The notes under the pieces: generated by a model
Databases searched by the model: none
Told to the model about the DNA's origin: nothing
Seen by the model: only the letters and a program-made list of their open reading frames with translations
From: Isoetes taiwanensis
Lineage: Eukaryota; Streptophyta; Lycopodiopsida; Isoetales; Isoetaceae
Length of the DNA stretch: 64,000 nt
Reading direction: 5' to 3'
Assembly (NCBI GenBank): GCA_021234155.1
Contig: JAJEKV010000034.1
Location: 5,160,028-5,224,027, forward strand
In this document: positions 4,401 through 59,439 of the stretch, one piece after another
How the letters are laid out: every line of letters starts with the position of its first letter
Position numbering within the stretch: the first letter of the stretch is position 1
Translations under genes and position numbers: made by a program

Positions 4401-4426
4401 ATTAATGTTTTTCTGCTTACAACAAA

Positions 4427-21573: not shown

Positions 21574-21888
21574 TTTCTATTCCATAATCGATAAGAGCCA
21601 TAGTCTTATTATGTTTCCAAATCCAAATCATTTGGACACCAGGAAATATACTGTTTCAAATATGGCCAAACTAAAGTTCCAAATCATGGAATAAAATCAT
21701 GGAATAAAAATCATGGAATCATGCATATTTATCTACTACAAGATTTTGTCGCGGCGGCTGTTCAATGCCTTTTAGTTCATATTTTGTAAAGATAAATGGA
21801 GTATGATGTTGCCAATAAGTAAAAAGAAAAAGGTTAGCTTGTTTATTATGGTTGTAAGTAACAAACAAACTGTGTAGAAGTCTCAAAT

Positions 21889-21985
21889 CTCAAGCGGTAG
21901 CTTTTACTTTTTGAATTGTCCACTAGCCGAGGTTATGTGTTCGGAATACATACCTCAATCGAGTGCTTGCTGTTTGATTATATTA
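21889..21985 (+). repeat. Possible tRNA-derived SINE piece, copy 2
   Basis: Block-A2 counterpart of the SINE-like piece at 909. The B-box-like string is TGTTCGGAATAC. It adds no independent evidence of mobility, because both copies lie at the same place in a larger duplication. Confidence 0.22.
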
Positions 21986-22261
21986 GGTTTTTTGCTTAAA
22001 ATGCTCGTCCAAAAGGCAAGTTTATATGTCCAATTTATATATTCTCAATCAAGTACTGTTTGATTATATTAGGTTTCTACATTTTTTGAGGAGTTAAGGG
22101 CACAACATGTGCTTCCTAGCTATTGTCAAATAGCTACGATTCATTTTATTTTTTCCAACATGATATTGCAAGGACGATACAATACATCATAAGTTACCAA
22201 ATGTCCTAGAAAATTTTATGAGAATGTATGGGGGGAAATGGAAATTGGGGAGCCCTCGAAA

Positions 22262-24569
22262 GTTAGAGAGTATTGAAACTCAAACGCCACTAGGAAGCTA
22301 GCTTGCTCTTTTATAGTTGTATCGCCATTATCTCAAGAAAACTTGGCTTATTGTCTCAAGTTTATCCTTACATGACGTTTTAAGGGCCATCCTTCTGCCA
22401 AGAAGGCCATGTGTTGTAATAATACTGATCTCCTAAATTTATCATGGTATCAGAGCCTGTAGGCTCTTGATCTTGGGACTTGGGTATGGAGGAGAAGCCG
22501 GATAGAGATACAGGGAAACCGCCTACACAAGAGAAGACTTCAAGGAAGAAGAAACGGAATGCTGTGTCCAAGAGATTTAAGGTATTCAAATTAAAATTCA
22601 AAACTTTACCCTTTGCATGTTTTCCTATTTCCTCCCTGTATTCTAAGAGGGAGAGATAATGCCGGGGAAGCGATTTATGTCAAAGAAGGGGCCGTGATGG
22701 AAGGGGCCGTTGAAGAGGTTATAGGCAAATCTGACTTTGATAGGGTCGGTGTGGAAGCCCACAAGGCTAAGAAGCGTGGAAGTGCCGTTGATGGCTTAGA
22801 AGAGGCTATCGAAGACCAAGAACAAGGCCAAGAAAGGGAGGCATTTCGTGTTTTTAGAGCCCAGGCCGATTTTGATGGGAGTACAGATAACCCCAATTAC
22901 GAAGCAGACATAGCCCAATTCGAAGCCCTTTGCCAAAATTATGTGGAAGAGAGCAGAAGGGCTATTGTTGCCGTTGTAGCAGATTCTGCAAAAGCCGTCA
23001 AAAAGGCTTCAGAAGAAGTATTTGAAGATCCTGGATTCCTAAGGATTAGGACAGAGAAGCATTTCCGAAATGATAATAAAACAGATTGTATGGCCATTGA
23101 AGACCTTAATGTCTTCTAATGCATGCCTTAGTCGAGAAATCCCTCCGCTGGAGATGAAAAAGGATTTTAATAAATTATGGCAGGCAAAGGAATCCGCAGA
23201 AGATCAAATCCTAAAGAAGGACCCAGAGGAGGTCGGATTTGAAGCCCACATCGCCCAGATTGCAGTAGATGACATTCCAGATGCTACTAAAGCAGAAGAG
23301 CAATTTAGAGCCAAATTCAGTATGGAAAGTGGCTCTCCTTGCAAGAAATTTCTTGCACTGGTATCCTCCCAGATAACCAAAATGTTCACAATATTGAAGC
23401 TCAGACGACTCTTTATTAGAGGTGGCGGCCGACAACATCGCGATGACTCAACCAGATCAATAATAAAGAAGGAGCCGCTTAAAGTAGGAGAAGTTTGAAT
23501 AATGCGGGGATAAGGGTGAAGAGGTCAGCAGAGGCAAGGGCGGTCCGCATCAAGATGGAAAGTCGAAGCAGCTAAGCAAAAATGATCAATTCTCGAAGAG
23601 AATGCTGATAGAAACTCTTTCACAATATGCGACTCATGAAGCACCGAGGTTAGTCGAAAGATGTTCCCCGATGCGGATGAAAGAAGGTCAATGTTGGAGC
23701 ATAGAAGAAATCCATCCAAATCAATAATGCGGATGCATTTTGATAAAGACACGCGATATTTCAAAATCCCTATCCTATCCCTCGATGCACAAGATGCGCT
23801 TGAGTTAAAATTAAGGAGGGATTGAGAATGATATTCAAGCTATTATGACGAGGTCAGCTGCGAGATCACATCATGATTGGAGATTGCGTATTACAAAAGG
23901 AGAGAGATTATGCTTGTTCACAAGGTATGCTTTTGAATTATAATGGACCTATAAGCTCTAATTGCTTTGCTCAAAGGAGGGAGTAATGATTATGAGCGAG
24001 CATAGAGAATGAGCAGATAGAAAAGCTTAAGAATGTGAAAGAAGAGATGACTGATTTAGCATGCCAAAAGAAAGCAAAGATCTTTGGGATCCGTGTATTC
24101 GAATTTGCATCCATCCGATCATGATGCAATCAATCTTGGAAAGGAATAATATGAATTTGATGTTCCGTAAGTTGTAAATGTTTTGATAAAATTCCATAAG
24201 CTGAACCGGAGAATTTGAAAGTAGAAATCGAGACATGAAGAGAAAACTTCTCGACATATTCCAAGAACAAGAACATTCAAGAATATTAGAAAATGCAAAA
24301 CGCCAAAGATGGCTCCACGATCAACCCGACATGATGATTTTGATAGTTGAGGTGTTCGCCTTGAGGGAGGGTGTTGGAATATATCAATCCTCCACCTCAT
24401 ATAGGCCACGTCATCATATGACATGGCAATCTACATGAAGAGTCATGTCTATTCATAGAGTCTGATATAGATCATAAGTTACGATTGGGAAGCTTGTTCC
24501 CATCACCAAGTTTTCTGTTCTATTCAATATATTGTGCATTGTAGTTATCTTGATCTCCTAAATTTATCA
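22262..24569 (+). mobile_element. Small LTR retroelement E, copy 2 (gag-like only)
   Basis: An intact primer-binding site TGGTATCAGAGCC lies at 22445-22457, directly after a sequence ending in AATTTATCA. A gag-like open region follows (22613 to ~24340). A purine tract (TTGAGGGAGGG) abuts a 3' LTR from 24372 (TGTTGGAATATATC) to 24569, ending in the same AATTTATCA. Internal length is ~1.9 kb, far too short for a full pol, and no RT or integrase motif is visible. The element looks non-autonomous. The 5' and 3' LTRs agree only near their 3' ends, so the 5' boundary given is approximate. Confidence 0.65.
22613..23498 (+). pseudogene. Acidic coiled-coil-like protein of element E (gag-like)
   Basis: Two overlapping frames (22613-23119 and 23070-23498) carry one protein interrupted by a frameshift near 23100. 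It is rich in E, K, A and D and looks helical: motifs include VEAHKAKKRG, EEAIEDQEQGQ, NPNYEADIAQFEALCQNYV and KAVKKASEEV. A later, frame-shifted C-terminal part (~24030-24340) reads KRKLLDIFQEQEHSRILENA then KRQRWLHDQPDMMIL. No CCHC knuckle, protease or polymerase motif is seen. Placement between a primer-binding site and a purine tract makes a gag-like or captured host protein the best guess. The likely start is near 22675, not the upstream ATG at 22613, which lies in leader sequence. Confidence 0.5.
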
Positions 24570-25619
24570 CTTAATTGTATACTGATCAACCTGAGCTTTG
24601 TGATGCCTTCCTAAACTTCAATGAAAAAAATGCTCAAAATGACCTAACCTCGAATCTTGATTAACAACCTAATCACACCATTTATCCACTACCGGTACAT
24701 CCCGAAGCATGGTAAGCCACAACTTCTGATGTTGATTTAAGTTAAAAGACCCATTATATATAAAGTTGAAAAAATAGGTCAAGAATTGGTTGGAAACTTC
24801 GAGAAGAGATATAAAAGCTTCTATCAATACCCATTCTAGAATATACATGTCACATGATCTAAAACTTCCAAAAAACTATCTCCTTCAAAAAATTTGTGCT
24901 CACGTCGTCCAATTTAGTTCATAATTTTCCATAAAAATACGTGCTAAGCCGCCCCTTACCTTCCATATTACAATTATATATTAGAGATAGCCATATTCGT
25001 AAAACCTTACATGTGTTAATGGGTCACTCCTTATGTGTCATTTGGGATCTTTGGATCCGGCCATATTTTTGAATATGCCAAATGAAGGGTAGAGGAATAT
25101 ACGCCTCACACCCATGTATGATAAAATGCTCCCCATATAGCATAAATACATACAAGAATACAAATATACATAATACATATTGAGATATGAATAATTTAAC
25201 ACCAACCATTGATGGGCCATAATTAAAAGCATTATAACATAGTAAAACCAATTACATTGCACGTATAGAAAATGCATATTTTAGCATTGATGGAAAAATA
25301 TCTCTTGTTTCTCCATTTCTGGTGCCTCATCAACCTACATGAAGAAACGACAATTAAACCTTAGTAGTTAAATGATAGAGTGAATGCATAAATAAACAAT
25401 GATTGCAAAATGCATTGTGGCGCATAATTGTTCAAAAAGGAACAAGCGCCAATGTTTTCGCCACAACAAATTTTGCCTGTGCAATCTTGAAAGCACATTT
25501 TTTGGATTGCCCCCTGGGGGCAAACCCATCGCTTATGGGCTTGTGGCAAATCCTAGTATATACTAGAATATATCTAGGATATGCTGGATCAAGCTCAAAC
25601 CTACTATTCCCAGAGATGG

Positions 25620-26210
25620 CTTTGGGTAAGATCCGCAGTTTTGCAACATTTTCAAGAGCAGCATTTTTCGTATTAGTAATTATTCTCGGTCTTATCAAAG
25701 ATCATCCCAGTCAAAATAGAGAGGCATTTTGGCGATCATATTTCATTTTACATTACGGGACAAGACGAGCTCTAGAAGGCAAGGATCGATCCTCCGAATC
25801 TAATGTACGCAAGTTCTGTTTACAAATTGGTTGCATATCGTCTATAGTTAATATTCTCAAAGCTATTCGAGGTGTACAGATCCAAGAGTTTCATCTCTCT
25901 TTGTCGAGCATTGGTACTCCATCAATATCCGTAACGCTTGTGTCGTGTATGTCTTCGGTGAAATTGAGAACTTGACTTTAAAAACACAAGCCATGACGAT
26001 GTTGGTGGAAGATTTGTCTCTAACTTTCCATGAAGGAGAACATTTGCTGGTGAGTTTTTGGTACATCTTGGAGTGTGAAGATTGAGCTAATTTTGAAAGC
26101 AATTTGATTGTTACGGATAATGGGTTCCAGTGAAACCGTAAAGGCGTCCACTTTAAGAGCAATTATCGGACTATGGCTTCGAAATGGCATAACCGTGTCT
26201 TTTTCCCTTT
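25620..26210 (+). pseudogene. ABCD-type ABC transporter fragment, copy b
   Basis: Block-A2 copy. A long frame from 25403 to 25975 runs through unrelated leader or intron sequence and ends with a GTPSISVT-like and SSVKLRT segment just before the nucleotide-binding-domain exon. The exon with MLVEDLSLTFHEGEHLL is readable near 26000-26047 and is followed by a GTGAGT donor. The Walker A exon near 26117 is damaged (GTTACGGAT for GTTACAGAT, and GTGAAACCGTAAAGG where the Walker loop should be). Same relationships as copy a. Confidence 0.6.
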
Positions 26211-26529
26211 TCTAGTGTCTTCTTCTTTGTCCCTTGTCCCTCGCTCTTTGTGCTTTTCGACTTTCTCACGAACTTCCATGTTTCTCTGATGCTAACTATC
26301 TAAGTGGAGGGTTGGTTGCCATAAGCTACTGGAAAACCATACTTCTCTTTTTCCTTTACACACTTCTCTGGACCTCCAGGCATTTCTACAATTACAGTAG
26401 CTAGTGATGGTAAGCTGCATGTAGTCCTTAAGAGACATTATCTTGATTATATTTGTGCCATAATAATTAGCAGTAGGAGGAGGATATGCAATAGATGCGG
26501 ACTGACATGTGAAGATGATCTCCTGCTGA

Positions 26530-28950
26530 CATGAAAACACCTAGTTTTGGTAAAAAATGTTTTAATGCCTTGCAAGTCATCTATCCAAAGCAAGATATCA
26601 CATTTCTAGTGGCAAAATTCGCAAAAGGTAGGCCCGAGATCGCGACAGAAATGCCATCACCCGATCCGGTTGAGGAAACTCGCCCAAAAATGAGGCGGGT
26701 TTTAGGCTAGCGTGACAACACCGATTTGCTAAAAGGGTTAAAATGCCATGCAAGTCATCTATCTATATACAAAATATGACATTTTCTACAAACCCCTTCT
26801 ACAACATGATGATGTCGAATAGAAAGAATGTTGCCTCGTGGTGGTCTGTATTCTTTAGGGTTTACATGATAGTGTATTTTAGGCAGAAACAAAACAACGG
26901 ATGAAAAGAGGAGTAGATGTCAAAATCATGCAAGAGAACATGCAAAAGAACATTAGAAGGTAAATTTGGAGCATGCAAGCGTAATAATGGAACAAAATAA
27001 ATATATAAATATTGAATTGGCAGGTTAAATAGCATATCTTGCTCGCAAATGCGCCGCCAATCTATATTACGCCGAAACTCGGAGAATTTGGTGCGTCGGC
27101 CATCGCCTCCCCAACCTCCAATTGAATAACTCCCGCGGTTTTGTTTAGATGAATTGTTCCTTTTGCTTTAGCGGGCAATTTGATTTTCAAATTTCAAATT
27201 CCCGGATTATTTCTTTTTGCCTTTAAAGGTCCGTGATTATCCCCTCTGTCTCAACCAACCTCACGCGGTCGCGGGCCATTATGGTTTGATTCTTCCACCA
27301 CCCACTTCTAGCGGAGTTTCCAAGTCGCCGTACATTTGGCACGTTTCATTACGCAGACACGCCCCGTCTTTGGTTGTCACAATCAAGATTTCATTCATTC
27401 AAATATTCTTTTTCCCCGCCAAATTTTCAGCGCCGAGAGTTTTAGTGCAACACCCGCCATCCGGGTATTTATGGCGGCGATAATGGGTATTAAATGCTCC
27501 CCGCCACAATTAATTGCATGGTATTAATGAGTCGCGCCTACTTAAGGACCCATTTTCGCGAAAAAATCTGCATCTTCAAAAAAATCTCAGCTTTTTCGAA
27601 AACTCTAGGCGACATAATTCTCGATCTCGACCTCAAAGAAGGTAATTTTCACGCTTTTCTTTAGCAATCGGTAGTCTTAGACCTTATTCGCCTTTTTTCT
27701 GGTGGAATAGTTTTCAACAAGATCGCTTAGCGATCTTGTTTATCTCTACAACTATTCGCTTTTTAGATTCGGATTGCTTGGGGAACCGTGGCCCACGATT
27801 CCCACGTAGACTTATAACATTAAAATAGAGCATATACTTTTTGTCTAGAGGATCGTGGAAGTTTACTGTCGGTGACCATTTTGTCAAGGCAGTTCTCTCA
27901 AAGATCGCGAACCGCATTTCTCTCGAGGCATTTTATCTCAAAGATGATGTCCGTTTAATAGCTTCGGTGTAAATAGGATCGCGATGCATGGATGTGGTTG
28001 ACCATTTTATGATTTCATTCCAAAGACTTGATCTCTTTCGAGGGGCCTAACATGGAGCCGATGTGCATAGTGACTCCGGTGGCCGGAAGTGGTGCATGGA
28101 AATTCCCGCAATACCACATATAAAAGGGACACGGAGGAAGGACCCTGCCTTCCCGAGGACGAAAGGGTGCGTAAGACTTTGAAAAAGATGGGTATAATTG
28201 TAGCCATGTGGGAAGGGACAAAAATAACAAAGGTGGGATGCTATCATTTATAGCGTGGAGGATACTGGCGAAGTGCACCGTAGAGTATATGCCGCGATGG
28301 CGAAATTACGACCCATCCATAATGATGGCAAGCAAGCAAAACAAGTTGGCTAGTGGCAAGGGTGTGCCAACCGTGCAAAGGGGTATGGTTGGTTCCATTC
28401 ATATCACATGACTATCCAGATTCTCGATAACTCACTACTTGCATAGACATACCCTTATGTCCGAGCTTGCCTTCCGGTAGGATCGTATCATGAGGATTAT
28501 AAAAAGGCTTATCAGGTTTATTATGGAAGTCTTCAATGATGTCTCATATCTATGTTAAGTGTTGTATTGTGATCACTTTTATAGAAGAACGTAAAGCTTA
28601 TTTTCGGAAACAACAAGGTAGTCCGGCCTCGATCATTATGTATGTAAAATTGAGGCCATCGGCTGTGATGTCTTCTTTATTTTCTCCAATGTAACGAGAA
28701 TCATCTTATAATATTTTCGTTATACTTTAATGTCCATTATGAATGACATTGTTGCTACCTCATAAACCTTTATAGGATACAACAATTGCCCACCATATTA
28801 TTGCCCATTATATACTAAAATAACACTAGGCCATGCAAGTTGATCTCAGTATAATGATGACATATAAAAATGGTTGTAAGTTTTTAGCATTGTTTTTAGG
28901 TTGCCCTAAGGGGCAAACCCTCGTTCATGAGGGTTTGTGTATTCCATGTA
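26530..28950. repeat. Arm D of the quasi-palindrome (left)
   Basis: From ~27720 to 28950 this sequence is the reverse complement of 39870-41500. The right arm carries a TRIM element at a position that is empty here (~28163). The first kilobase (26530-27700) has no partner that I recognise. No gene is identified: frames near 28000-28280 and 28208-28411 do not match known families, although the minus-strand frame at 40116-40406 in the other arm retains a parallel reading. Confidence 0.65.
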
Positions 28951-28985
28951 TATGCCAAATATATCCGGGACTATGCCAATAGCCA
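28899..28985 (+). repeat. GGTTGCCC/GGGCAAACC foldback motif (copy in arm D)
   Basis: GGTTGCCCTAAGGGGCAAACCC is a near-perfect inverted repeat, followed by a TATATGCC-type stretch. Related hairpins occur at 53106-53129, 25506-25528, 4450-4473 and, inverted, at 39871-39893. Confidence 0.45.
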
Positions 28986-29099
28986 AAATTCATTATTGGA
29001 TGTAAACTATTGGTCGCTTCTATTCTTTGGGTAGCCACTCACGAAAGCTGGCTAACGATTCAATTCGACAATCCTTAATGTCTGGTCATTAAAGTAGGC

Positions 29100-30958
29100 C
29101 AAACATGTAAACACCCATATTCTACACCTCTCTAATTGCTTACAACTTTAGATGACCAATACAATATCATGAACTTCTAATTTGTGGTAATAGAATCTAC
29201 ATAACAATCACAACATGATAGAGTAACACATTTCCAACCATCTTAATAAATAGCAACTTTATGAATAAACACAAACAACTATTGCTCTTGGGTTACTATC
29301 TACCATGTCACAAGTTCGAGTCCAAATAGACAATGAGCGTAACTTTCTTGGACTAAGAAAATGACAACCTGCAGATTTATAGCTATCCACACAAAACAAA
29401 CAAGACCCAACACAAAATACGAGAGCATAACCCATGGAATTGGAAACACACTTTCGATGGATGGAAACACACTTTTCGGCCAATCGAGGGCAACCCTCGA
29501 TCGTGAGCACTTTGTTATTGTTATTGTTTGTACTAGTGCAACCCTTGTTGTTTTTGTAAAGTAAGACATATTTTATCTAAAGCCTTTAGGAATCGGTAGA
29601 AACAAGTTAGATATTTTTATCTCCAAAAGCCTTTAGGGAATCGAACCCAAACAATTCCTTCACCACAATCACAACCACAATATAATCCGCGATATGTGGT
29701 CAGGGTTTGGCCCATCGTTCTTACAAACAAATTGATATTTTGCGAAGCTCTGAAAAAGCTTGAAAGGTTTTGGTTTCTCAAATTAAAGCCTGCGGATTTT
29801 CGAGCCCGAAGCTAGTGGAGGAATTTTGCCCCGACAACCTTTATAAACACATAAAACCGTGTTTATAGATTCTAAGAAAAATGCTTCTAGCTTAGAATAG
29901 AATGAGGCAAAGAAAAACAACAACAAAATTCCCATGGAAGCAAGCCATTATGTAGTTTCAAATTGTCAACAAGCATCCGGTCTGCAGACCATTATTATTA
30001 ATGTTTCATACTCAAAGATATGAAATGATTAAATGTAGCTTAAATTTAACAACTACCATGTTTTTTCTTAAGCTTTTCAATGCGGTCATATTCGTCTTTG
30101 AGGATGTGAAGAAGACTAGAATTCCTTTAGGCACAAATATGGATAGGCTTGAAAAACTAAAAAGAAAACATTTATTTGACAAATAACAAAAGAGGATTTA
30201 AAATAAAATTTTTGAATGTGATGGTTTTGAGTAATGAGATGATTTTCGGTTAGTTCGGCACTTTGATTACTGATGGGTGTATTCAGAGGCCGAAATTTCA
30301 ATTTAGATGATACCGTTTTTAATGACCCTAGCGAGGCTTGGCGGCGGTCTAAGAGCGTCGACAAGTTGTAGTCATTCATACGCATCAACAAAGTTTGCTT
30401 GATCTTGTTGTCCATATGCAGTTAATTTTGAGAACTATAAATCTTAAGAGGGAGGTACTTTTATCTAATTTTAATTAGTTGGGAAGTCCCCCCTTACTTG
30501 CACCTAACATCCCGTGGAAGTAAATACATAATTCCTATGAAGACATTTCTAAAGAATATGTTATTAATCTAAGGAGAAATGAGAAAATGCAAAATTTGAA
30601 TTCATGTCCGACAACTTGGATATCCATATATTAAGTATATCTTTGCATAATTTCCCTTTACTTGCTTTGTGTATGCAGGACATCACAGATGTGGATGAAC
30701 CCGAATGGCTGGTTGAACCCGCAAAATCCACTGCTAACTACATGTGATTAGTGAATGTACTTGTGTTCAAAATTTTTCCTTGGACTTGTTCATCTCAAAC
30801 TGTCTTATAAAGCCAACTAACTAACAGATTGTTAGATGCGGTTGAGCTACCTCTGCTTCAGTACAAAGATGCATTTCCCATGCATGTTCTGGAAGCCAAG
30901 AATGGGCCAAGAGCAAAATGATTTATATAGAATCGAAACCTCTGATTTGTAAGCATTT
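29100..30958 (+). repeat. 1.5-kb repeat unit, forward copy V2
   Basis: Second forward copy of the unit, slightly longer than V1, including the B-box piece at 29312-29322 and the CAACTAACTAACAGATTG region near 30810. It adjoins arm D, just as the inverted tandem array adjoins arm D' on the right. It stops abruptly at ~30958, where sequence inverted from 16190-16290 begins. Confidence 0.75.
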
Positions 30959-32039: not shown

Positions 32040-33480
32040 GTTTTCACATTCTAGTGACACAAACCAACAGATCTCTATGGTGGATTTATGTGCTCGACCC
32101 ATAGCGGCGTCTCTAGCGGTAGTGGCCTCTCTTTGATGATGTATTTTCTTCTCCACAAGTGCAAAATATCTTTGAACAAGTTGCATCATTTGTTGGAGAA
32201 TGCAAAAATTTTGGCTTCAATGGCATCGACTTTAAGAAACACCACCCGGATGTGGACACCATGGCTCTTTGCATAAGTGCGGTACGTGGAGCATGAGTTT
32301 GTGAATGAGGCACATGCTTCTAAAATGTTGGACCTTATTATTTCCAATGTTGATGCCCAAGGGACACTTCGGTTTACTTGAATGGCTTCGACCTCGAATC
32401 GATCTATGTTTCCATAGCCAGCGTGCTCTTTCTTGCATATCAAGCTGGGTAAGGGAATCACATCCTTTGTGATCGTTATCAAAGAGTTGCTTGTTCAAGA
32501 GTTCTTGGAGTGAAGGCTACAAATGGGGACAAGGTATTATCCTCGACCTGAGTGCTTTCTCTTTTATTATGGCAGGCTTACGCGACGCTTTAGAAATAAA
32601 GTGCCCGTGTATGAGCAAACCGGTAGATGTAATTAAGGTGCCAGACTGGAAGCTCTCGTGATTCATCTTCGCCACAAATGGCAATATAAGCCGGATTATA
32701 CTCAACTCCATGTTTGACATGGCAGTGAATGAGTTGGATATAGATGTGCTACTGCAATCATAAAGCAGAGTGATGGATCGTGGCCCTTACACAAACATGG
32801 TTTCTCCCAAGCGCAATTGTTGGCTGCATAATCCTGCACTAGAGATAGTTTTCATATTGGCAGCCTTGCTCCATACTTAATAGTTGAAAAAAGAAGTCGC
32901 TCATGGGGCTTAAAAACACTAAACTAGTAGCACAAAATTTCATTTTATTTCAGCAATTTTGCTTCTTAAGCAACAATAATACAATAGATTATTAGCACAA
33001 GTTCGATTGGCGAGTTCTACTTCTTAAGCAAAGATAGTATAAAGATCTGAAATCTAGAAAGTATTCTAACTCTTCATCCTTCGAAAGATCTTATCTTTAT
33101 TACCAATTATTTGTGTCCCCTGGCTCTCTCAAGTCGTCATACATGTGATTTCGATGATAGTAGGAGTTCCGGGCGAGAGGCAATGCTATGTGCACATACC
33201 GCTGCTGCGATTGTTGGTAGAGATGTGCTCTCCCATAAACATATCAAAGCCGAGGACAATCCTCGTGTACCTTCGTGATAAAGGGCAACGTTTTTGAACT
33301 TATCTTTAAACATGACATTACACTAAAGGGCTTGGCATCTTTTCTTTGGAGCTCATAAGCGGGAGGCTAGCAATCGGCAATGCCCACCAAAGATCTATAG
33401 TTACAGGATCTTTGAAGACACCCTATCGACACATAAGTTTGAAGAGCCTTAAATCAATTTCCATTAGCAGGGCAAATCGT
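32040..33480. repeat. Inverted copy of 19570-20985 (block B)
   Basis: Continuous reverse-complement match to the sequence left of block A2, including the stretch GAGGACAATCCTCGTGTACC at ~33250 and the TTCTTAAGCAA repeats near 32960-33040. It connects gene X to the first unit of the tandem array. Confidence 0.8.
32080..32880 (+). pseudogene. Downstream exons of gene X, inverted copy
   Basis: Reverse-complement duplicate of 20180-20911, lying directly after fragment X copy 3, so gene X reads left to right from 31.4 to 32.9 kb here. The same two candidate frames are seen, each shorter because of indels (for example 32088-32276). Matching position and order in both orientations show that the ~3.4 kb around gene X was copied as one unit. 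Function unknown. Confidence 0.35.
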
Positions 33481-36400
33481 GGGCCTACCATATTACGCTA
33501 TGCAATATCGTAACTAGATAATATAACATCCAAGCCATGACATACAGATCCAAAGTTTTAGTATTATATGCCAAATCATCTTTGCATATATGAACATTTA
33601 CAAATCAGAGGTTTTGATTCTATAAAAATCATTTTGCTCTTGGCCCATTCTTGGCTTCGAACATGCATGGGAAATGCATCTTTGTCTGAAGCGAGGTAGG
33701 TAGCTCAACCGCATCTAACAACTGTTAGTTTGTTGGCTTTATAAGACAGTTTGAGATGAACAAGTCCAAGGAAAAATTTTGAACACAAGTACATTCACTA
33801 ATCACATGTAGTTAGCGGTGGATTTTGCAGGGTTCAACCAACCATTCGGGTTCATCCACCGTGATGTCCGCATACAGTGCAAAGGGAAATTATAAAGCAT
33901 ATACTTAATATATGGATATCCAAGTTGTCGACATGAATTCAGCTAGCATTTTCTTTCTCTGTAGATTAACAACATATTCTTTAGAAATGTCTTCATAGAA
34001 ATTATGTATTTACTTCACGGATGTTAGGCGCCAAGTAAGGGACTTCCCAACTAATTGAAATTAGATAAAGTACCTCCTCTTAAGATTTATAGTTCTCAAA
34101 AATTAACTGCATATGGACAACAAGATCCGCAACTTTGTTGATGGAGAAGGAATGACCACAACTTGTCGATGCTCTTGCGTTGCCGCCAAGCCTGCTAGAG
34201 TCATCAAAAAACGCCAAAGACTGAAATGTATGACCGCATTGAAAGCTTAAGAAAAAACATGGTAGTTGTTAAGAAACATGGTCATTTCATATCTTTGAGT
34301 ATGAAACATTAATAATAATGGTCCGCAATTTGGATGCATGTTGACAATTTGAAACTACATAATGACTTGCTTCCATGGGAATTTTGTTGTTCTTTTTTTC
34401 TTCCCTCATTCTATTCTAGCGCTAGAAGCATTTTTCTTAGAATCTGTAAATGCAATTTTTATGTGTTTATAAAGCTTGTCGAGGCAAGCAGCTCGTAAAA
34501 ATGTGCAGTTTTAATTCGAGAAAACCAAAGCCCTTCAAGCTTTTTCAGAGCTCGCAAAATATCAGAGCTGTTGTAAGAACGATGGGCTTCAGCTTCAGCC
34601 ACATATGCGGATTATATTGTGGTTGTGATTGTGACTGAATGAATTGATTGGGTTCGATTCCCTAAGGCTTTAGATAAAAATATGTCTTACTGTACAAAAA
34701 ACAACAGTGGTTGCATTAACAAGGTGCTACGCACGAGGGGTTCCATGGGTTCTGCTCTGTATTTTGTGTTAGGTCTTGTTTGTTTTGTGTGGAGCCATAT
34801 AAATAGCTATAAATACAGGTTGTCATTTTCTTAGTCCAAGAAGGCGCTCATTGTCTATTTGGACTCGAACTTGTGACATGACTGAGATAGTAACCCAAGA
34901 GCAATAGTGTTTGTGTTTATTCATAAAGTTGCTATTTATTAAGATGGTTGAAATGTGTTACTCTATCATGTAGTGATTGTTATGTATATTTTATTACCAC
35001 ATGATATTGTATTGGTCATCTAAAGTTGTAAGCAATTAAGAAAGGCGTAGAATATAGGTGTAGCAATCAGCAATGCCCACCAAAGATCTATAGTTACAGG
35101 ATGCTGAAGACACCTATTAGCAGGCAACTGTGGGCCTACCATATTCTGCTATGCAATATCGTAACTAGATAATATAACATCCAAGCCATGACATACAGAT
35201 CCAAAATTTTAGTATTATATGCCAAATCATCTTTGCATATATGAACATTTACAAATCGAGGTTTCGATTCTATAAAAATCATTTTGCTCTTGGCTCCCTC
35301 TTGGCTTGGTTTTAACATGCATGGGAAATGCATCTTTGTCCTGAAGCGTAGGTAGCTCAACCGCATCTAACAACCGTTAGTTAGTTGGCTTTATAAGGCG
35401 ATTTGAGATGAACAAGTCCAAAGGAAAAATTTTGAACACAAGTACATTCACTAATCACATGTAGTTAGCGTGTGGATTTTGCGTGTTCAACCAGACCATT
35501 CGTGTTCATCCACGCGTGGATGTCCGCATACACCGTGCAAAGGGAAATTATCTTCATAGGAATTATGTATTTACTTCACGGATGTTAGGGCAAGTAGGGG
35601 ACTTCCCAACTAATTAAAATTAGATAAAGTACCTCCTCTTAATATTTATAGTTACTCAAAAATTAAGCGCATATGGACAACAAGATCCGCAACTATGTTG
35701 ATGGAGAAGGAATGACCACAACTTGCTGATGCTCTTCTTGGCGCCAAGTAAACGCTAGAGTCATTAAAAACGCTCAGCACTGAGCTGTGTGACCGCATTG
35801 AAAAGCTTAAGAAAAACATGGTAGTTGTTAAGAATTTAAGCTACATTTAATTGAGTATGAAACATTAATAATAATGGTCTGCAGACTGGATGCTTGTTGA
35901 CAATTTGAAACTACATAATGACTTGCTTCCATGGGAATTTTGTTGTTCTGTTTTTCTTGCCTCATTCTATTCTAGCATTCGAGAAAATTAAAACCCTTCA
36001 AGCTTTTTCAGAGCTCGCAAAATATCAGAGCTGTGTGTAAGAACGATGGGCTTCAGCTTCAGCCACATATGCGGATTATATTGTGGTTGTGATTGTGACT
36101 GAATGAATTTTTGGGTTCGATTCCCTAAAGGCTTTAAATTAAAATATGTTTACTGTACAAAAAACAACATGTAAAAAAAACAAGAGTGATTGCACTAGTA
36201 CAAACAACAACAAGGTGCTACGCACGAGAGGTTGCCCTCCGATGGCCCGAAAGTGTACCGGTGGGCTGAAAGTGTGTTTCCATGAGTTCTGCTCTGTATT
36301 TTGTGTTGGGTCTTGTTTGTTTTGTGTGGAGCCATATAAATAGCTATAAATGCAGGTTGTCATTTTCTTAGTCCAAGAAGGCACTCATTGTCTATTTGGA

Positions 36401-39400
36401 CTCGAACTTGTGACATGACTGAGATAGTAACCCAAGAGCAATAGTGTTTGTGTTTATTCATAAAGTTGCTATTTATTAAGATGGTTGAAATGTGTTACTC
36501 TATCATGTAGTGATTGTTATGTATATTTTATTACCACATGATATTGTATTGGTCATCTAAAGTTGTAAGCAATTAAGAAAGGCGTAGAATATAGGTGTAG
36601 CAATCAGCAATGCCCACCAAAGATCTATAGTTACAGGATGCTGAAGACACCTATTAGCAGGCAACTGTGGGCCTACCATATTCTGCTATGCAATATCGTA
36701 ACTAGATAATATAACATCCAAGCCATGACATACAGATCCAAAATTTTAGTATTATATGCCAAATCATCTTTGCATATATGAACATTTACAAATCAGAGGT
36801 TTCGATTCTATAAAAATCATTTTGCTCTTGGCCCACTCTTATTTTCGAACATGCATGGGAAATGCATCTTTGTCCTGGCGAGGTAGCTCAACCGCATCTA
36901 ACAATCTGTTAGTTAGTTGGCTTTATAAAGGCGGTTTGAGATGAACAAGTCCAAGGAAAAATTTTGAACACAAGTACATTCACTAATCACATGTAGTTAG
37001 CGGTGGATTTTGCGGGTTCAACCAGACCATTGAAGTTCATCCAGCGTGATATGCATACACCGTGCAAAGGGAAATTATCTTCATAGGAATTATGTATTTA
37101 CTTCCACGGATGTTAGGCGCCAAGTAGGGGACTTCCCAACTAATTAAAATTAGATAAAGTACCTCCTCTTAATATTTATAGTTACTCAAAATTAAGCGCA
37201 TATGGACAACAAGATCCGCAACTATGTTGATGGAGAAGGAATGACCACAACTTGTTGATGCTCTTCATTTCTTTATAAACTGCTAGAGTCATTAAAAATT
37301 TCGAAGATGAGCTGTATGACCGCATTGAAAAGCTTAAGAAAAAACATGGTAGTTGTTAAGAATTTAAGCTACATTTAATTGAGTATGAAACATTAATAAT
37401 AATGGTCTCTGCAGATTTGGATGCTTGTTGACAATTTGAAACTACATAATGACTTGCTTCCATGGGAATTTTGTTGTTTTTTTTTCTTGCCTCATTCTAT
37501 TCTAGCATTCGAGAAAACCAAAACCCTTCAAGCTTTTTTGAGCTTCATAAAAATATGTTGAGTGTGTGTAAGAACGATGGGCTTGACTTGACCACATATG
37601 CGGATTATATTGTGGTTGTGATTGTGGATTGAATGAATTTTTGGGTTCGATTCCTAAAGGCTTTAAATAAAAATATGTTTCTTGTACAAAAAACAACATG
37701 TAAAAAAACAAGAGTGATTGCACTAGTACAAACAACAACAAGGTGCTACGCGAGAGAGGTTGCCCTCAGATGGCCGAAAGTGTACCGTGGGCGAAAAGTG
37801 TGTTTCCATGAGTTCTGCTCTGTATTTTGTGTTGGGTCTTGTTTGTTTTGTGTGGAGCCATATAAATAGCTATAAATGCAGGTTGTCATTTTCTTAGTCC
37901 AAGAAGGCACTCATTGTCTATTTGGACTCGAACTTGTGACATGGTGAGATAGTAACCCAAGAGCAATAGTGTTTGTGTTTATTCATAAAGTTGCTATTTA
38001 TTAAGATGGTTGAAATGTGTTACTCTATCATGTAGTGATTGTTATGTATATTTTATTACCACATGATATTGTATTGGTCATCTAAAGTTGTAAGCAATTA
38101 AGAAAGGCGTAGAATATAGGTGTAGCAATCAGCAATGCCCACCAAAGATCTATAGTTACAGGATGCTGAAGACACCTATTAGCAGGCAACTGTGGGCCTA
38201 CCATATTCTGCTATGCAATATCGTAACTAGATAATATAACATCCAAGCCATGACATACGAGATCAAAATTTTAGTATTATATGCCAAATCATCTTTGCAT
38301 ATATGAACATTTACAAATCGGAGGTTTCGATTCTATAAAAATCATTTTGCTCTTGGCCCCTCTTGGCTTCAGAACATGCATGGGAAATGCATCTTTGTCT
38401 GAAGCGAGAGGTAGCTCAAGCGCATCTAACAATCTGTTAGTTAGTTGGCTTTTATAAGGCGATTTGAGATGAACAAGTCCAAGGAAAAATTTTGAACACA
38501 AGTACATTCACTAATCACATGTAGTTAGCGGTGGATTTTTGCAGGTTCAACCAGCCATTCAGGTTCATCCAGCGTGATGTGCGCATACACCGTGCAAAGG
38601 GAAATTATCTTCATAGGAATTATGTATTTACTTCCACGGATGTTAGGGCTTAAAGTAGGGGACTTCCCAACTAATTAAAATTAGATAAAGTACCTCCTCT
38701 TAATATTTATAGTTACTCAAAATTAAGCGCATATGGACAACAAGATCCGCAACTATGTTGATGGAGAAGGAATGACCACAACTTGTCGATGCTCTTCTTG
38801 GTTGCCCGCCAAGCCTGCTAGAGTCATTAAAACGCCAAAGACTGAAATGTATGACCGCATTGAAAAGCTTAAGAAAAACATGGTAGTTGTTAAGAATTTA
38901 AGCTACATTTAATTGAGTATGAAACATTAATAATAATGGTCTGCTTGGTGGATGCTTGTTGACAATTTGAAACTACATAATGACTTGCTTCCATGGGATT
39001 TTGTTGTTGTTGTTTTTCTTGCCTCATTCTATTCTAGCATTCGAGAAAACCAAAACCCTTCAAGCTTTTTGAGCTTCATAAAATATCGAGTTTTGTGTGT
39101 AAGAACGATGGGCTTCAAACTTGACCACATATCACGGATTATATTGTGGTTGTGATTGTGTGAATGAATTGTTTGGGTTCGATTCCCTAAAGGCTTTAAA
39201 TAAAAATATATTTCTTGTACAAAAAACAACATGTAAAAAAACAAGAGTGATTGCACTAGTACAAACAACAACAAAGGTGCTACGCATACGAGAGGTTGCC
39301 CTCCAGATGGCCGAAAAGTGTACCAGGTGGGCGAAAGTGTGTTTCCATGAGTTACGCTCTCGTATTTTTGTGTTGGGTCTTGTTTGTTTTTGTGTGGAGC

Positions 39401-39660
39401 CATATAAATAGCTATAAATGCAGTTGTCATTTTCTTAGTCCAAGAAGGCACTCATTGTCTATTTGGACTCGAACTTGTGACATGGTGAGATAGTAACCCA
39501 AGAGCAATAGTGTTTGTGTTTATTCATAAAAGTTGCTATTTATTAAGATGGTTGAAATGTGTTACTCTATCATGTAGTGATTGTTATGTAGATTTTATTA
39601 TCACAAATTGGTGAGTTCATGATATTGTATTGGTCATCTAAAGTTGTAAGCAATTAAGAA
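33388..39660 (-). repeat. Tandem array of ~1.53-kb units (four, inverted)
   Basis: Using the landmark CAAAGATCTATAGTTACAGG, units begin at 33388, 35081, 36618 and 38143, giving steps of 1693, 1537 and 1525 bases. The last unit ends near 39660. Units 2 and 3 are near-identical over long runs; the first has ~150 extra bases shared with block B. Each holds an inverted B-box piece (GGACTCGAACT), the string GGGTTCGATTCCCTAA, and the ACATGCATGGGAAATGC region. No conserved protein is recognised. All units are in the orientation opposite to V1 and V2. Confidence 0.85.
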
Positions 39661-40611
39661 AGGTGTAGAATACGGGTGTTTACATGTTTGCGCCTACTTT
39701 AATGAATAGATTAAGGATTGCCGAAAGGACCGTAGGTTAGCGGGTTCGAGTGGCTACCAACCAATAGAAGCGACCAATAGTTTACATCCAATAATGGATT
39801 TTGGGCGGCTATTGGCATAGTCCGCAAGATATATTTGCATATACGGAATACCCAAACCCTCATGAGCGAGAGGTTTGCCCCTTAGGGCAACCCAAAAACA
39901 ATGCTAAAACTTCTGACCATTTTATATGTCATCATTATACTGGATCGACTTCCATGGCCTACTGTTATTTTAGTATGTAATGGGCAATAATATGGTGGGC
40001 AATTGTTGTATCTATAAAGGTTTGTGAGGTAGCAACAATGTCATTCATAATGGACATTAAAGTACTGAAAATATTATAAGATGATTTTGTTACATTGGAG
40101 AAAATAAAAAAGACATCACGACCCGGTAATTTTACATACATAATTATCGAGGCATTTGCCTTGTTGCTTCCAGAAATAAGCTTTATGTTCTTCTATAAAA
40201 GTGATCACAATACAACACTTACGTAGATATAAGACATCATTGAAGACTTCCATAATAAACTTATAAGCCTTCTTAATAATCCTCATGATACGATCCTGGC
40301 TGAAGGCAAGCTCGGACATAAGGGTATGTCTATGCAAGTAGTGAGTTATCGGGGACGGATAGTCATGTGATATGAATGGAAACAACCATATCCCTTTGGT
40401 TGGCACACCCTTGCCACTAGCGGTTTGTTTTGGTTGCTTGCCATCATTATGGATGGTCGTAATTACGCCATCGCAAGATCTACTCTATGAATTGCGGTTG
40501 CTACATTATCCTCCACACTATAAATTATAGCATCCACGCATGTTATTTTTGTCCCTTCCCACATGGCTACAATTATACCCATCTTTTCAAAATCTTACGC
40601 ACCCTTTTACG

Positions 40612-40776
40612 TGTTGAAATCTTTGGAGTATGTGTAAGGGGCACACATAAGGATGAGGAGTGCCGAAAGCCCATCAAAGGGTCGGTAGCTCAGTGGTAGA
40701 GTACTTGGCTTGCAAGCAAGAGGTCCTGGGTTCGATCCCCAGCCTGTCCACCCAATCGTAGAAACCTCATTTCTCA
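40612..40776 (+). repeat. TRIM 5' LTR
   Basis: 165 bases, TG...CA ends. Compared with the 3' LTR it lacks about ten bases around GACTCAGTGGAG and has a few substitutions; otherwise the two are the same. The tRNA-like segment occupies 40679-40750, close to the LTR 3' end. Confidence 0.8.
40679..40750 (+). tRNA. tRNA-Ala(UGC)-like sequence in 5' LTR
   Basis: 72 bases fold as a cloverleaf. Acceptor GGGTCGG/CCTGTCC has two G-U pairs and one mismatch. The D arm is GCTC/GAGT. The anticodon stem CTTGG/GCAAG has one mismatch, and the loop CTTGCAA has anticodon TGC. The T arm CTGGG/CCCAG is perfect with loop TTCGATC. The discriminator is A. Pol III A box (TAGCTCAGTGG) and B box (GGTTCGATCC) are both consensus. 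There is no encoded CCA. Because it lies inside an LTR and is duplicated with it, it is more likely a mobile promoter module or tRNA-derived passenger than a cellular tRNA gene, although it may be transcribed. Confidence 0.75.
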
Positions 40777-40779
40777 ATA

Positions 40780-40792
40780 TGGTATCAGAGCC
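40780..40792 (+). other. TRIM primer-binding site (initiator tRNA-Met)
   Basis: TGGTATCAGAGCC, three bases after the LTR end. It is complementary to initiator tRNA-Met and not to the tRNA-Ala-like sequence in the LTR, so the internal tRNA is not the primer. Confidence 0.85.
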
Positions 40793-40974
40793 ATGGTCCC
40801 AAATAAAGGGTGCTTAACCGCACCGGGATAGTCCCCCGTTTGTGTAGGGGTGAGAATGAGCAAAATCTTGGCCAGTGGAAAGCCCAACTCCCGCAGTGGT
40901 GGAGTTGGCCGAGGAGGGGAGCATGTGGATTGTGGTGAAGGCTGGAATGGATTGGTGTGTCCATTAAGGGGGAA

Positions 40975-41148
40975 TGTTGAAATGCTGGAGTATGTATAAT
41001 GGGCACACATAAGGAATGACTCAGTGGAGGAGTGCCGAAAGCCCATCAAAGGGTCGGTAGCTCAGTCGTATAGTACTTGGCTTGCAAGCAAGAGGTCCTG
41101 GGTTCGATCCCCAGCCTGTCCACCCAATCATAGAAACCTCATTTCTCA
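40975..41148 (+). repeat. TRIM 3' LTR
   Basis: 174 bases, directly after the purine tract. It contains the second tRNA-like segment at 41051-41122 and ends TTTCTCA, like the 5' LTR. Sequence after it (ATTCTGTCTTCAGAAAGAGG) rejoins the host sequence of arm D. Confidence 0.8.
41051..41122 (+). tRNA. tRNA-Ala(UGC)-like sequence in 3' LTR
   Basis: Same 72-base cloverleaf as in the 5' LTR, with two changes in the D loop region (CAGTCGTATAG for CAGTGGTAGAG). These weaken the A box GG and leave the B box, T arm and anticodon intact. Confidence 0.72.
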
Positions 41149-41519
41149 ATATTCTGTCTTCAGAAAGAGGCAGAGGTCCTTCCGGCGGTCCCCTTTTGGG
41201 CAATTTCCATGCACCACTTCCGGCTTCTGTCAGGAGTCACTATGCACATTGGCTCCATGTTAGGTTCTCGAATGCTGGAATGAAATTATAAAAGTGGTCA
41301 AGCACATTGCCATGCGATCCTATTTACGAAGCTACTTAAATGACATCTTTAAGATAAAATGCCTCAAAGAAACGCAGTCGCGATCTTTGAGAGAACTGCC
41401 TTGACAAAATGGTCTCAGCAATCGCTTTCGTGATTCTCTAGACAAGTATATGCTCTATTTTAATAATAAGTCTCTGTGAAAATCGTGGCCGCGGTTCCCA
41501 CAAGCAATCGAAAAAAACA

Positions 41520-52600: not shown

Positions 52601-53105
52601 TATTTATCTATAGCCATATTCAGAAACCTTACATGTGTTAATGGGTCACTCCTTATGTGTCATTTGGGATCTTTGGATCCGGTCATATTTTCCTGAATAT
52701 GCCAGATGAAGGGCAGAGGAATATATGCCTCACACCCATGTATGATAAAATGATGTACCACAAATACATACAAGAATACAAATATACATAATACGTATTG
52801 AGATATGAATACCGCAACACCAACAATTGATGGGCCATAATTAAAAGCATTACAACATAGTAAAACCAATTATAGAAAATGCATATTTAGCATTGATGGA
52901 AAATATCTTCTCTTGTTCTCCATTTCTGGTGCCTCATCAACCTACATGCAGAAACGACAATTAACCTTAGTAGTTAAATGATAGAGTGAATGCATAAATA
53001 AACAATGATTGCAAAATGCATTGTAACTGCATAATTGTTCAAAAGGGAACAAGCAGCCAATGCTTTCTGCCACAACAAATTTGCCCAGGCAACGAGCACA
53101 TTTTT

Positions 53106-53195
53106 GGGTTGCCCCTAAGGGGCAAACCCTCGCTTATGTGGGCTTGTGGCATATCCTAGTATATACTAGAATATACCTAGGATATGATGGTGACT
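53106..53195 (+). repeat. Foldback motif, cleanest copy
   Basis: GGGTTGCCCCTAAGGGGCAAACCC forms a near-perfect hairpin. It is followed by a second dyad, ATCCTAGTATATACTAG with ATACCTAGGATAT. The pair is conserved in the equivalent place of each ABC-fragment copy (4446-4540 and 25500-25585). It is compact and has no coding capacity. It may be a decayed foldback or MITE-like element, or a structured intron sequence. Confidence 0.45.
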
Positions 53196-53404
53196 GCTCC
53201 AAACCTACTATTCCCTGTACCTGGGCGGCCGCTGTGCAAGATCCGGCAGTTTTTGCAACATTTTCAGTAGCAGCATTTTCTGTGTTAGCAATTATTCTGG
53301 TCTTATCAAGATCATCCCAGGTCAAAATAGGAGGCATTTTGGCGATCATATTTCATTTTACATGCTGGACAAGACGAGTTACGGAAGGCAAGAATCGATC
53401 CTCA

Positions 53405-53718
53405 GAATGTGTGCTCTTGTCGACATTGGTGGTACTCCATCAATATCTGGTAACGACCAGCGTCGTGTATGTCTTTCGCAAATTGAGAACTTGACTTTAA
53501 AAACACAAGGCATGACGATGTTGGTGGAAGATTTGTCTCTAACTTTCCATGAAGGAGAACATTTGCTGGTGAGTTTTTGGTACATCTTGGAGTGTGAAGA
53601 TTGAGCTAATTTTGAAAGCAATTTGATTGTTACAGATAATGGGTTCCAGTGGAACTGGTAAGACGTCACTTTTGAGAGCAATTACTGGATTATGGCACTC
53701 AGGAAATGGCATAACCAG
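53405..53718 (+). pseudogene. ABCD-type ABC transporter fragment, copy d (cleanest)
   Basis: Two exons join in frame across a short intron. Exon 1 ends ...MLVEDLSLTFHEGEHLL at 53568 with donor GTGAGT. The 67-base intron ends TTACAG at 53635. Exon 2 (53636-53718) continues IMGSSGTGKTSLLRAITGLW then HSGNGITR, and ends at a CAG|GTCTTT donor. GSSGTGKTS is a perfect Walker A loop, and the SLLRAITGLW context is typical of ABCD (peroxisomal or plastid fatty-acyl) half-transporters. Upstream, VDIGGTPSISGNDQRRVCLS leads in without a break. No further nucleotide-binding-domain exons (signature LSGGE, Walker B) are found before the LTR that begins at 54394. This is a gene fragment or a gene cut by the element. 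Confidence 0.75.
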
Positions 53719-54393
53719 GTCTTTCTCTCTTTTTCTAGTGCTGCTTCTTGTCCTTGTCCCTGTCTTTGTGCTTTTCAACTTTCTCTGAACTTCCATGTTT
53801 CTCTGGTTGCTAACTATCTAAGTGGAGGGTGGGTTGCCATAAGCTACTACAGAACTATACTTCTCTTTTTCCTTTACACACTTCTCTAGACCTCCAGGCA
53901 TTTCTACAATTACAGTAGCTAGTGATGGATAAGCTGCATGTAGTTCCAAGGGAGATTGCGCTGATTGCGCTGTGCCATAATAATTAGCAGTAGGAGGAGG
54001 ATATGTAATAGATGCGGACTGGCATGTGAAGATGATCTCCTGCTGGAGGATAAGGGGAAATGGCTTGGAGGTGAGTAAACCCTCTACTGCGCAGGTGGGT
54101 AGCTAGTATCCTTTTCAGTTCCATGTGCACTAACATTCGCAGCAATAGGCTGACCCTGCGTAGAAGAAAGATATTTGTGCACCACTAGTGCAAGACAAAG
54201 GAATGTGAAGATACCTAGTAAGCCATTGGTTTGCTCAGTTGAATGCCTTTCTCATGGTTTGAGAAATCTAAATTTTTTCATTACATCATCGTGATGTCTA
54301 GAACCATGTCATTGTGTTTTGATAGTGGAACTAGTGCCATAATGTTGTGTCCTTGATGCAAAGTAGCAATAACTAATATCTGCTAACCCCTTG

Positions 54394-56907: not shown

Positions 56908-58081
56908 ATGGCACCAAGGAAGATTTTAGTCGCTGAACCACACGAGGAGACAAATCAACCAGATTTGGTAGGAGTAAGCATGAGAGTGGCTACCGGATCT
57001 ACCACTAATGCTACAAATACTCCCTAACTTGCCTATTCCTCCACCGGCTCCTCTCTATCGGTCTACAAATATTACAAATATTTTCCTCTGTGCCCTCTTC
57101 TTCACAAATTCATAAACTTTTGAACCAGATCAACACCTTTCGATCACATTTCCTCCATCAGCACCTTATCATTTTGAGTTGACTATACATTTCCCCCCCT
57201 TGCTATGATTCTTCCATGAATGCCAACCATTTTCTAAAAACTTTGAAGACTATTATGAAGAACATGGGAGAAAGAAGGGTTCCAGGTTTGCAGAATTCAT
57301 CAAATGCATGAAGGGTGATGAGGCCAGATCTTGGCTCGATTTTGAGCTGTCTATAGGTACCAAAGGGGATGAATTGGAACACAAGTTTCTATCAAGGTTT
57401 GGTAAGGCTACTTCACCCCAGGATCTTGTCTTTGAACTCAACTCATTTTCCATTAGACCTGGTGAGAGTGTAAAGCAGTATGTGGAGAGATTTAATTCTT
57501 ATTTGCTAGTGTGTAACAGGAATCAGGTTACTCATCCAACATTGCACCTAGTTGCTTCCTTTATCAGAGGTTTGATGTCTAGACCTAGGATCTATAGGAA
57601 GTTATTAAAATTACAAAAATTTGGTGAGTTGGATTCTATCCATAAAACATTTGTAAAATTTTGTAGATCGGCGAGAACTATTAAGCTATCTTCCCGATGA
57701 AGAGATCAGAGATCCATTTTATCCTCCTCATCATGGAACCCGAACATGATTTACATTTTGCTAATCTTTGCTCCCGTTTATGCAAGATAAAAAAGAGAAG
57801 AAGAAGTCCAAGGCTGAAGAATTGGATCCTCATGTTTCAGAGATGAAATCTGAGATCAGTAAAGTGTCTGAGGCACTTTTGGAAGTTACCAAACAACTTA
57901 CTGAATTAAAAAACAGTAAAGATGCCCCACCTCCTGAATGCACAAACTGTGGTAAACCTTACCATAGAGTTGGCGGTGTTTTGCAAGGCAATGTCCTAAG
58001 TGTCATAGAAGAGGTCACTTTGGTAGAGAATGTCCTGTTTTGCTCTTTTTGCAAGGAAATAGGTCATGAGGAGAAGTATTA
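56908..58081 (+). pseudogene. gag of the gypsy element
   Basis: A start at 56908 reads MAPRKILVAEPHEETNQPDL. The capsid core is open at 57308-57700 (EARSWLDFEL, FLSRFGKATSPQDLVFELNS, ESVKQYVERFNSYLL, then ASFIRGLMSRPRIYRKLL), matching Retrotrans_gag. A C-terminal frame (57768-58082) has a coiled-coil stretch (ISKVSEALLEVTKQLTELKN), then CTNCGKPYH. After a frameshift comes a full CCHC knuckle QCPKCHRRGHFGRECP (~57989-58036). Two or more frameshifts separate these parts. Confidence 0.8.
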
Positions 58082-58549
58082 AAGTGTTAAGGCTTATTTT
58101 GAAAAACAAGATAAAGGTAAACAAATGTCAAATATAAGTTTTATTGAGACTTTGTGCGGAGAACGGGGAAGAGCAAGATGTTATGGTTGTGTGAACCGTG
58201 CGAGCTCATCCAAATGCATCTACAGGTTCATTTCCACCTCATAAGGTAACATTTCAATCAGATCCTCGAATATAGCTCCTCCTCCCCGCTCCAAAGGTAT
58301 AAGCAGAAAGATTCCGGGAGTTGGATGAATTTGAATTACTTATGAAAAATTCTAAGGTTCTTTGTGGATTTATTAACTTTCTGGCGAGAATTGCACCATC
58401 ATCAGGGGGAAAAGTTGATCAAAAGCACTCCGGATATTGAAGAGGTTCTTTGCTGAAACCCGCAACAATATTTCGTGGCTTTGCACGAGCAAACCGAAGA
58501 TCCGTGTGCTTTTACTTGTAGTGCTACTATAGGAACTTCCCATCTAGAC

Positions 58550-58840
58550 AAAGTTTTTCTTTGGATGGAGGTTCTTCTCTTAATGTTATGCCTTATCATG
58601 TTATGAAGGCTTTGGATCTCAAGGTAGAAGATAATACTTCCATTGTTCTAAAATCTTTTCAAATGCTAAAGTTGTGCCTAAGGGAATAGTAAGAAATGTA
58701 TCCGTGAATCTGGGGGAATCATTGTCTTGCCACATTTGTGGTTGTTGATTTTGAAAATGTTAATCAAGCTAATATCTATGATCTATTATTAGGAAGGAGA
58801 TGGATGAAAACAGTGGATGCCAGACTGTATGTATGGTGCG
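58550..58840 (+). pseudogene. Aspartic protease of the gypsy element
   Basis: LDGGSSLNVMPYHVMKALDL carries the active-site Asp in the DGGSS form known from Tat/Athila proteases rather than DTGA. Downstream, NIYDLLLGRRWMKTVDA is the usual ILGRPWL-like C-terminal flap region. A frameshift lies between them near 58660. The order after gag is normal. Confidence 0.65.
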
Positions 58841-59039
58841 AAGGCACTTGCACCATTTCAATGGAGCAACTTCATCAAACCGGCAAACAAAACCCGATCC
58901 ATCTCTGCTAACATTAGGTTCATAGATGTGGACATACCTGAGGAAGAAGATTTGGGTGTTTACAATTTAGGCCTGGATGCTAGTATACATGAAGAGGTTG
59001 TCAACTTTGCTTACATGCATGTTGAATCTCCGATCGAAG

Positions 59040-59430
59040 GCAAAAAAAAAGCCTATCTACGGTTTGATGGAGGTATGTCAAAAAAACGGGGATTGCTTCT
59101 TCCTGGCTGCTATTTTGAAGGATGCAGATTTTAAGTTGATGACTAAGATAGGGAGAATTCACCCTAATATTTCTTCTAATGCAGCGTGAGAATACAAAGC
59201 CCTCATTGCGAGGTTTACAAGAAGCAAAGGTGTATGAGTATTTCTCATATTGTTATTTATGGAGACTCACAACTTGTTTGTAGACAAATCTTGGGAGAAT
59301 ATCGAACTAAACATCAAGACATGGAGGATCCGAGTGCTCAAGCCGGAGAATTATTAACTTTTTTTGATCATTGGGAGATTTTACATATTCCTAGATCTAA
59401 AAATTTTGAAGTCGACTCATTGTGAGAAAA
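59040..59430 (+). pseudogene. Archaeal-type RNase H, placed upstream of RT
   Basis: Across three frames the domain reads AYLRFDGGMSKNG, then NAAEYKALI, then IVIYGDSQLVCRQILGEY, then HIPRSKNFEVDSL. These correspond to the DGGxxxNxG, N-AE-xAL, GDSxLV and R-x-N-x-x-D motifs of archaeal-like RNase H, with the four acidic active-site residues recognisable. This domain degrades the RNA strand of RNA/DNA hybrids. In Tat elements as usually described the extra RNase H lies after RT-RNase H and before integrase. Here it sits between protease and RT. Confidence 0.7.
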
Positions 59431-59439
59431 ACCCTTATG

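Follow-up and report, generated by a model that had tools for sequence, protein, structure and literature searches.

In the 64-kb stretch of DNA analysed here (the window), a compact, non-coding element with long terminal repeats (LTRs) spans positions 40612-41151, about 540 nt in size, and each of its LTRs contains a segment that resembles a tRNA-Ala(UGC) gene. Both LTRs begin with TGTTG and flank an internal domain of ~195 nt that starts with a primer-binding site (PBS) and ends in a polypurine tract (PPT). The parts of the element are as follows:

40612-40779, + strand: 5' LTR, a direct repeat of 40975-41151; 168 nt if its end is ...CAATA, or 165 nt (to 40776) if it is CA
40679-40750, + strand: tRNA-Ala(UGC)-like segment of the 5' LTR, predicted by ARAGORN; Rfam RF00005, 60.1 bits, E 1.7e-10
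40780-40974, + strand: internal domain, about 195 nt, without recognisable coding sequence
40780-40793, + strand: PBS TGGTATCAGAGCCA, of initiator-Met tRNA type, directly 3' of the 5' LTR
40966-40974, + strand: PPT AAGGGGGAA, recognised from the sequence, abutting the start of the 3' LTR
40975-41151, + strand: 3' LTR, 177 nt, or 174 nt (to 41148)
41051-41122, + strand: tRNA-Ala(UGC)-like segment of the 3' LTR, predicted by ARAGORN; Rfam, 50.5 bits, E 7.1e-8; two D-arm substitutions

Two alignments of the LTRs, each with a further 13 gap columns, show 6 substitutions over 163 aligned columns in one case and 5 over 166 in the other; BLAST gives 89.4% identity over 179 columns, and the 3' LTR has an extra stretch of ~10 nt after AAGGA. 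The PBS, which we take to be of the plant initiator-Met type, is the sole exact match to its sequence in a + strand scan of the window. The conclusion that the element comes from a plant rests on this primer-site type, which Cassandra shares and whose string is printed in plant papers. None of the 15 open frames of at least 120 amino acids in the window overlaps the element, and Pfam searches with the three element-overlapping frames of at least 85 amino acids gave no credible match (best E 0.32). With two LTRs, a PBS, a PPT, a size under about 1 kb and no coding sequence, the element has the make-up of a terminal-repeat retrotransposon in miniature (TRIM). The initial annotation, which had placed a miniature LTR element at 40612-41148 with matching LTRs of 165 and 174 nt, an initiator tRNA-Met primer site, a purine tract and no coding sequence, was thus right in its architecture and, to within a few bases, in its coordinates; the direct repeats end at 40776 or 40779 and at 41148 or 41151.

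The element is a genuine insertion: elsewhere in the window, an inverted paralog of the flanks is missing the whole stretch, with limits that agree with the element ends to a few bases. The features that bear on this are:

27772-29186, - strand: inverted paralog of the flanks, without the element; empty site between 28162 and 28107
40607-40611, + strand: candidate 5-bp target duplication, left copy TTACG, from comparison with the empty site TTTCG
41152-41156, + strand: candidate 5-bp target duplication, right copy TTCTG, from the same comparison

The flank at 39602-40607 matches 29186-28162 with 87.2% identity over 1042 columns, and that at 41199-41509 matches 28107-27772 with 78.4% over 342 columns. 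The empty site is CACCC-TTTCG-TCCTC and the filled site is CACCCTTTTACG, the element and TTCTGTCTTC, a comparison that suggests an end of the 5' LTR at 40779. The junction alignment is ragged, and its simplest reading would be a decayed 5-bp duplication together with LTRs that end in ...CAATA and not in CA. Divergence between the LTRs (Kimura two-parameter distance 0.031-0.038) is lower than that between the flanks and their paralog (0.072 over 974 columns and 0.088 over 329), which fits an insertion that followed the duplication of the flanks.

ARAGORN predicts two tRNAs in the 64 kb, both Ala(TGC), one in each LTR and at equal offset, and an Rfam search of the window with the threshold relaxed to E 0.5 returned nothing besides the same two segments. 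Given this and their E-values, the tRNA segments are not chance matches. The module keeps the D, T, anticodon and acceptor stems. In both copies one acceptor-stem pair is a C-U mismatch, and the pair that closes the anticodon loop is G-G; the 3' copy, with its two D-arm changes, has one broken D-stem pair. Scored against consensus strings for the tRNA boxes, the A box of the 5' LTR (TAGCTCAGTGG) matches an 11-base consensus at 11 of 11 positions and a 12-base version at all but one of its 12, and its B box (GGTTCGATCCC) agrees at 10 of 11. The segment carries the anticodon UGC, a G3-U70 pair and A73, which are alanine identity features; by these rules the module is consistent with alanine. Free-energy folding gave a different picture, with minimum free energies of -18.8 (5' copy) and -18.3 kcal/mol (3' copy) vs. 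-14.2 and -9.9 kcal/mol for the respective cloverleafs when non-standard pairs are left open. The minimum-energy folds differ from the cloverleaf, which is thus unsupported by free energy, and z-scores relative to shuffled sequences are +1.13 and +0.60. As modelled, the tRNA shape holds for the covariance model only, and the predicted fold of the free RNA is no cloverleaf. The proposal that a 72-base segment of both LTRs folds as tRNA-Ala(UGC) with consensus A and B boxes therefore survives for ARAGORN, for the Rfam covariance model and for the boxes of the 5' LTR, but not for the free-energy fold, and the 3' copy has its two D-arm changes. The longest complementarity between the PBS and the element's own tRNA is 5 nt, so that the LTR tRNA is not the primer, as had been stated at the outset. 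A possible target-site duplication flanking the tRNA segment alone (CCCATC / CCCAATC), which would be a trace of a retroposed tRNA or of a short interspersed nuclear element (SINE), was dismissed as evidence; its score is equalled by 8.2% of 20,000 random window pairs and by 44 of 448 pairs within the element.

TRIMs with a tRNA-derived sequence in their LTRs have been described as Helenus by Kojima 2024 (PMC10886601). Helenus is found in fungi, animals and one plant, Selaginella moellendorffii, and is grouped with Cassandra and Ajax as TRIMp3. Its LTR tRNA sequences are proposed to be promoters for RNA polymerase III (Pol III), explicitly likened to Cassandra, with Pol III transcription undemonstrated for the published elements, and a SINE insertion into an LTR is the proposed origin. 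Most Helenus LTRs retain box A and B motifs, across 113 families in rust fungi, 51 in bivalves, 40 in wasps and others besides. Lengths range from 311 to 1263 bp, the target-site duplication of fungal and plant Helenus is 5 bp, and no complementarity of the LTR tRNA to the PBS is reported. The element described here is likewise short (~540 nt, inside that range) and non-coding, has its PBS after the 5' LTR and its PPT before the 3' LTR, and carries in both LTRs a tRNA-derived sequence that does not serve as primer, with A and B boxes recognisable in the 5' LTR, if by a loose 11-base consensus for the A box. Compared by description only, it is larger than Helenus-1_SMo of S. moellendorffii, with LTRs of 165-177 nt vs. 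120 bp and an internal part of ~195 nt vs. 85 bp. The anticodon and the tRNA body disagree in many Helenus families, whereas the tRNA here is alanine-consistent. We read the element, with a probability of roughly 0.8, as a non-autonomous LTR retrotransposon of the TRIM class with a tRNA-Ala(UGC)-derived segment in each LTR, that is, as a plant representative of Helenus (TRIMp3). It is a fresh example, in a single copy, of a kind already described in 2024, and not a fresh invention. The idea in the initial annotation that such an element would be a separate invention of the trick known from Cassandra falls with that publication, which already includes one plant.

Cassandra itself resembles the element in its small-RNA-derived LTR module, its plant host type and its PBS core TGGTATCAGAGC, which is also printed for Cassandra in PMC7215508. 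The Cassandra module, on the other hand, is 5S rRNA, and Rfam gives no 5S match here. The best match to Cassandra box C in the element has 3 mismatches, and a box-A-like match with 1 mismatch lies on the minus strand of the internal domain, outside the LTRs. Membership of Cassandra was rejected, as a 5S rRNA-derived module carrying boxes A and C is missing from the LTRs. The box-A-like match falls at 40808-40824, where there is also a small hairpin (GGTGC...GCACC), and is probably due to chance. Ajax, with a partial 5S rRNA sequence and found in two nemerteans according to PMC10886601, shares the small-RNA-derived LTR module. In size, PBS, PPT and the absence of coding sequence the element is like the canonical plant TRIMs of Gao et al. 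2016 (PMC4717578), a survey of 43 plant genomes in which, as far as the accessible main text goes, the word tRNA does not occur and 5S sequences are given for Cassandra only. The parts seen of a larch repeat paper (PMC8312256) and of a Cassandra paper (PMC10853983) contain nothing on tRNA-bearing TRIMs, and Kojima 2024 is cited by a meeting report. In literature searches that mostly leave subscription papers outside, only Kojima 2024 was relevant to TRIMp3, judged by title, and none of six strings from the tRNA segment occurred in any paper.

How might such an element move? By analogy with Cassandra and with the model put forward for Helenus, it is probably transcribed by Pol III from the tRNA boxes of its LTR and copied in trans. 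Recruited by boxes A and B of the tRNA in the 5' LTR, Pol III would start just upstream of 40679 and read on across the internal domain and into the 3' LTR. With initiator-Met tRNA as primer, minus-strand synthesis would begin at 40780, and the short cDNA of the tRNA-to-PBS segment would jump onto its counterpart in the 3' LTR of the RNA; the 67 nt that precede the tRNA would in this way be restored from the 3' LTR. Since the first strand transfer would need just the tRNA-to-PBS stretch, whose LTR part is repeated in the 3' LTR, an exact 3' end of the transcript would be unnecessary. The plus strand would be primed by the purine tract, and reverse transcriptase and integrase would be supplied by an autonomous element. 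The tRNA module would accordingly act as a portable internal promoter, being neither primer nor, probably, a working tRNA. The element holds no TTTT; the first one after the 5' tRNA is at 41194, beyond the element, so that the LTR has no such terminator inside. This absence was considered as a sign of Pol III read-through and dismissed: among 5000 dinucleotide shuffles of the element (537 nt), 55% likewise lack TTTT, and the fact that no more than 80 of 6347 stretches of this length sampled from the window do so is ascribed to the lower T content of the element. A scan of 40500-41300 for bacterial-type promoters and terminators was uninformative (1 and 1 site vs. 1.2 and 0.7 in shuffles).

Several observations weigh against a Helenus-type element driven from its tRNA boxes, among them the unsupported cloverleaf and the dismissed TTTT argument. 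The candidate target duplication TTACG/TTCTG is degenerate (3/5 identical), and an exact target-site duplication of 4-6 bp was not found near the element ends. The 11-base A-box consensus is loose enough to have two further exact matches in the internal domain. Only one copy was seen, so that the tRNA might be confined to it or to its recent parent. The most serious alternative is an ordinary TRIM transcribed by Pol II in which a tRNA gene or SINE head was acquired by chance in the LTR of one parent and is carried as a passenger, without a promoter role. The single copy in the window, the LTR without a TTTT terminator, the failed free-energy cloverleaf and the D-arm changes of the 3' LTR all lean that way, though decay after insertion explains the last. 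We consider this unlikely in view of the clear tRNA form seen by the covariance model, the box scores of the 5' LTR and the A and B motifs retained in most of the many Helenus families (PMC10886601).

Two other explanations fare worse. Segmental and tandem duplications abound in the window, and the repeats could in principle be a pair of tRNA-Ala genes duplicated locally in tandem, with only the look of an LTR element. The PBS right after the first repeat, the purine tract right before the second, the TGTTG at the start of both and the paralog that lacks the whole stretch, with ends near those of the element, make this very improbable. It is also conceivable that the tRNA is a functional product and that working tRNA-Ala genes are spread or maintained by the element; the alanine-consistent features speak for this, as does the contrast with the anticodon-body disagreement reported for many Helenus families (PMC10886601). 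The acceptor and anticodon-stem mismatches of both copies, the further D-stem mismatch of the 3' copy, a cloverleaf well above the minimum free energy and the lack of a T-run after the tRNA inside the LTR leave it hardly any likelihood.

BLAST found no second copy of the element in the window. One exact element pattern each had no match in viral contigs or prokaryote genomes, and among plasmid (4 records) and phage (42 records) matches to the whole element none covers 80% of the query. The 4 plasmid matches fall on the tRNA part, with no annotated feature there, and 9 of the 10 phage matches listed, from the 42 records, lie on annotated tRNA-Ala or tRNA-Asn genes. The collections searched (viruses, prokaryotes, plasmids and phages) have no bearing on copy number in the host.

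The remainder of the window contains other repeats. At 33463-39679, a ~1.53-kb unit with no recognised coding sequence is repeated in tandem, in some four copies; two stretch pairs of neighbouring units differ by 6/560 and 5/470 columns, and other pairs are 79-93% identical. A large direct segmental duplication joins 1-5458 and 20988-26519 (~82% identity), with a third, partial copy in parts of 52610-54389 (81-89%). A second primer site of initiator-Met type (1 mismatch in 14) at 22445-22458, directly after ...TTTATCA, apparently starts another, degraded LTR element, and the primer site's probable duplicate is a similar match at 1446, with 3 mismatches. Pfam searches with 25 open-frame pieces identified a degraded Gypsy-like retrotransposon at 57209-61864 (gag, integrase zinc-binding and a sub-threshold integrase core match) and a sub-threshold GDSL-lipase fragment; weak matches to DUF5958 and IL3Ra_N were taken as chance. 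Of two PDB comparisons, one gave no match and the other a weak match to prohibitin-2 (E 0.076).

Should its host lie outside the lycophytes, the element would possibly be the first of Helenus type there. A more specific reading, tentative and in our view somewhat short of an even chance, is that a plant TRIM family outside lycophytes independently captured a tRNA-Ala gene as a Pol III promoter of its LTR, a second plant origin of the Helenus type; the module is still alanine-consistent, pointing to a perhaps recent acquisition. In practical terms, such elements are a hazard for annotation as they yield false tRNA genes, and both tRNA predictions of this window are parts of LTRs. A second plant origin, if true, would parallel the 5S capture of Cassandra, both being plant elements that share an initiator-Met primer site. 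The element adds a plant case to a kind for which the literature found names one plant host, and it supports the view that miniature LTR elements have captured small-RNA promoters repeatedly.
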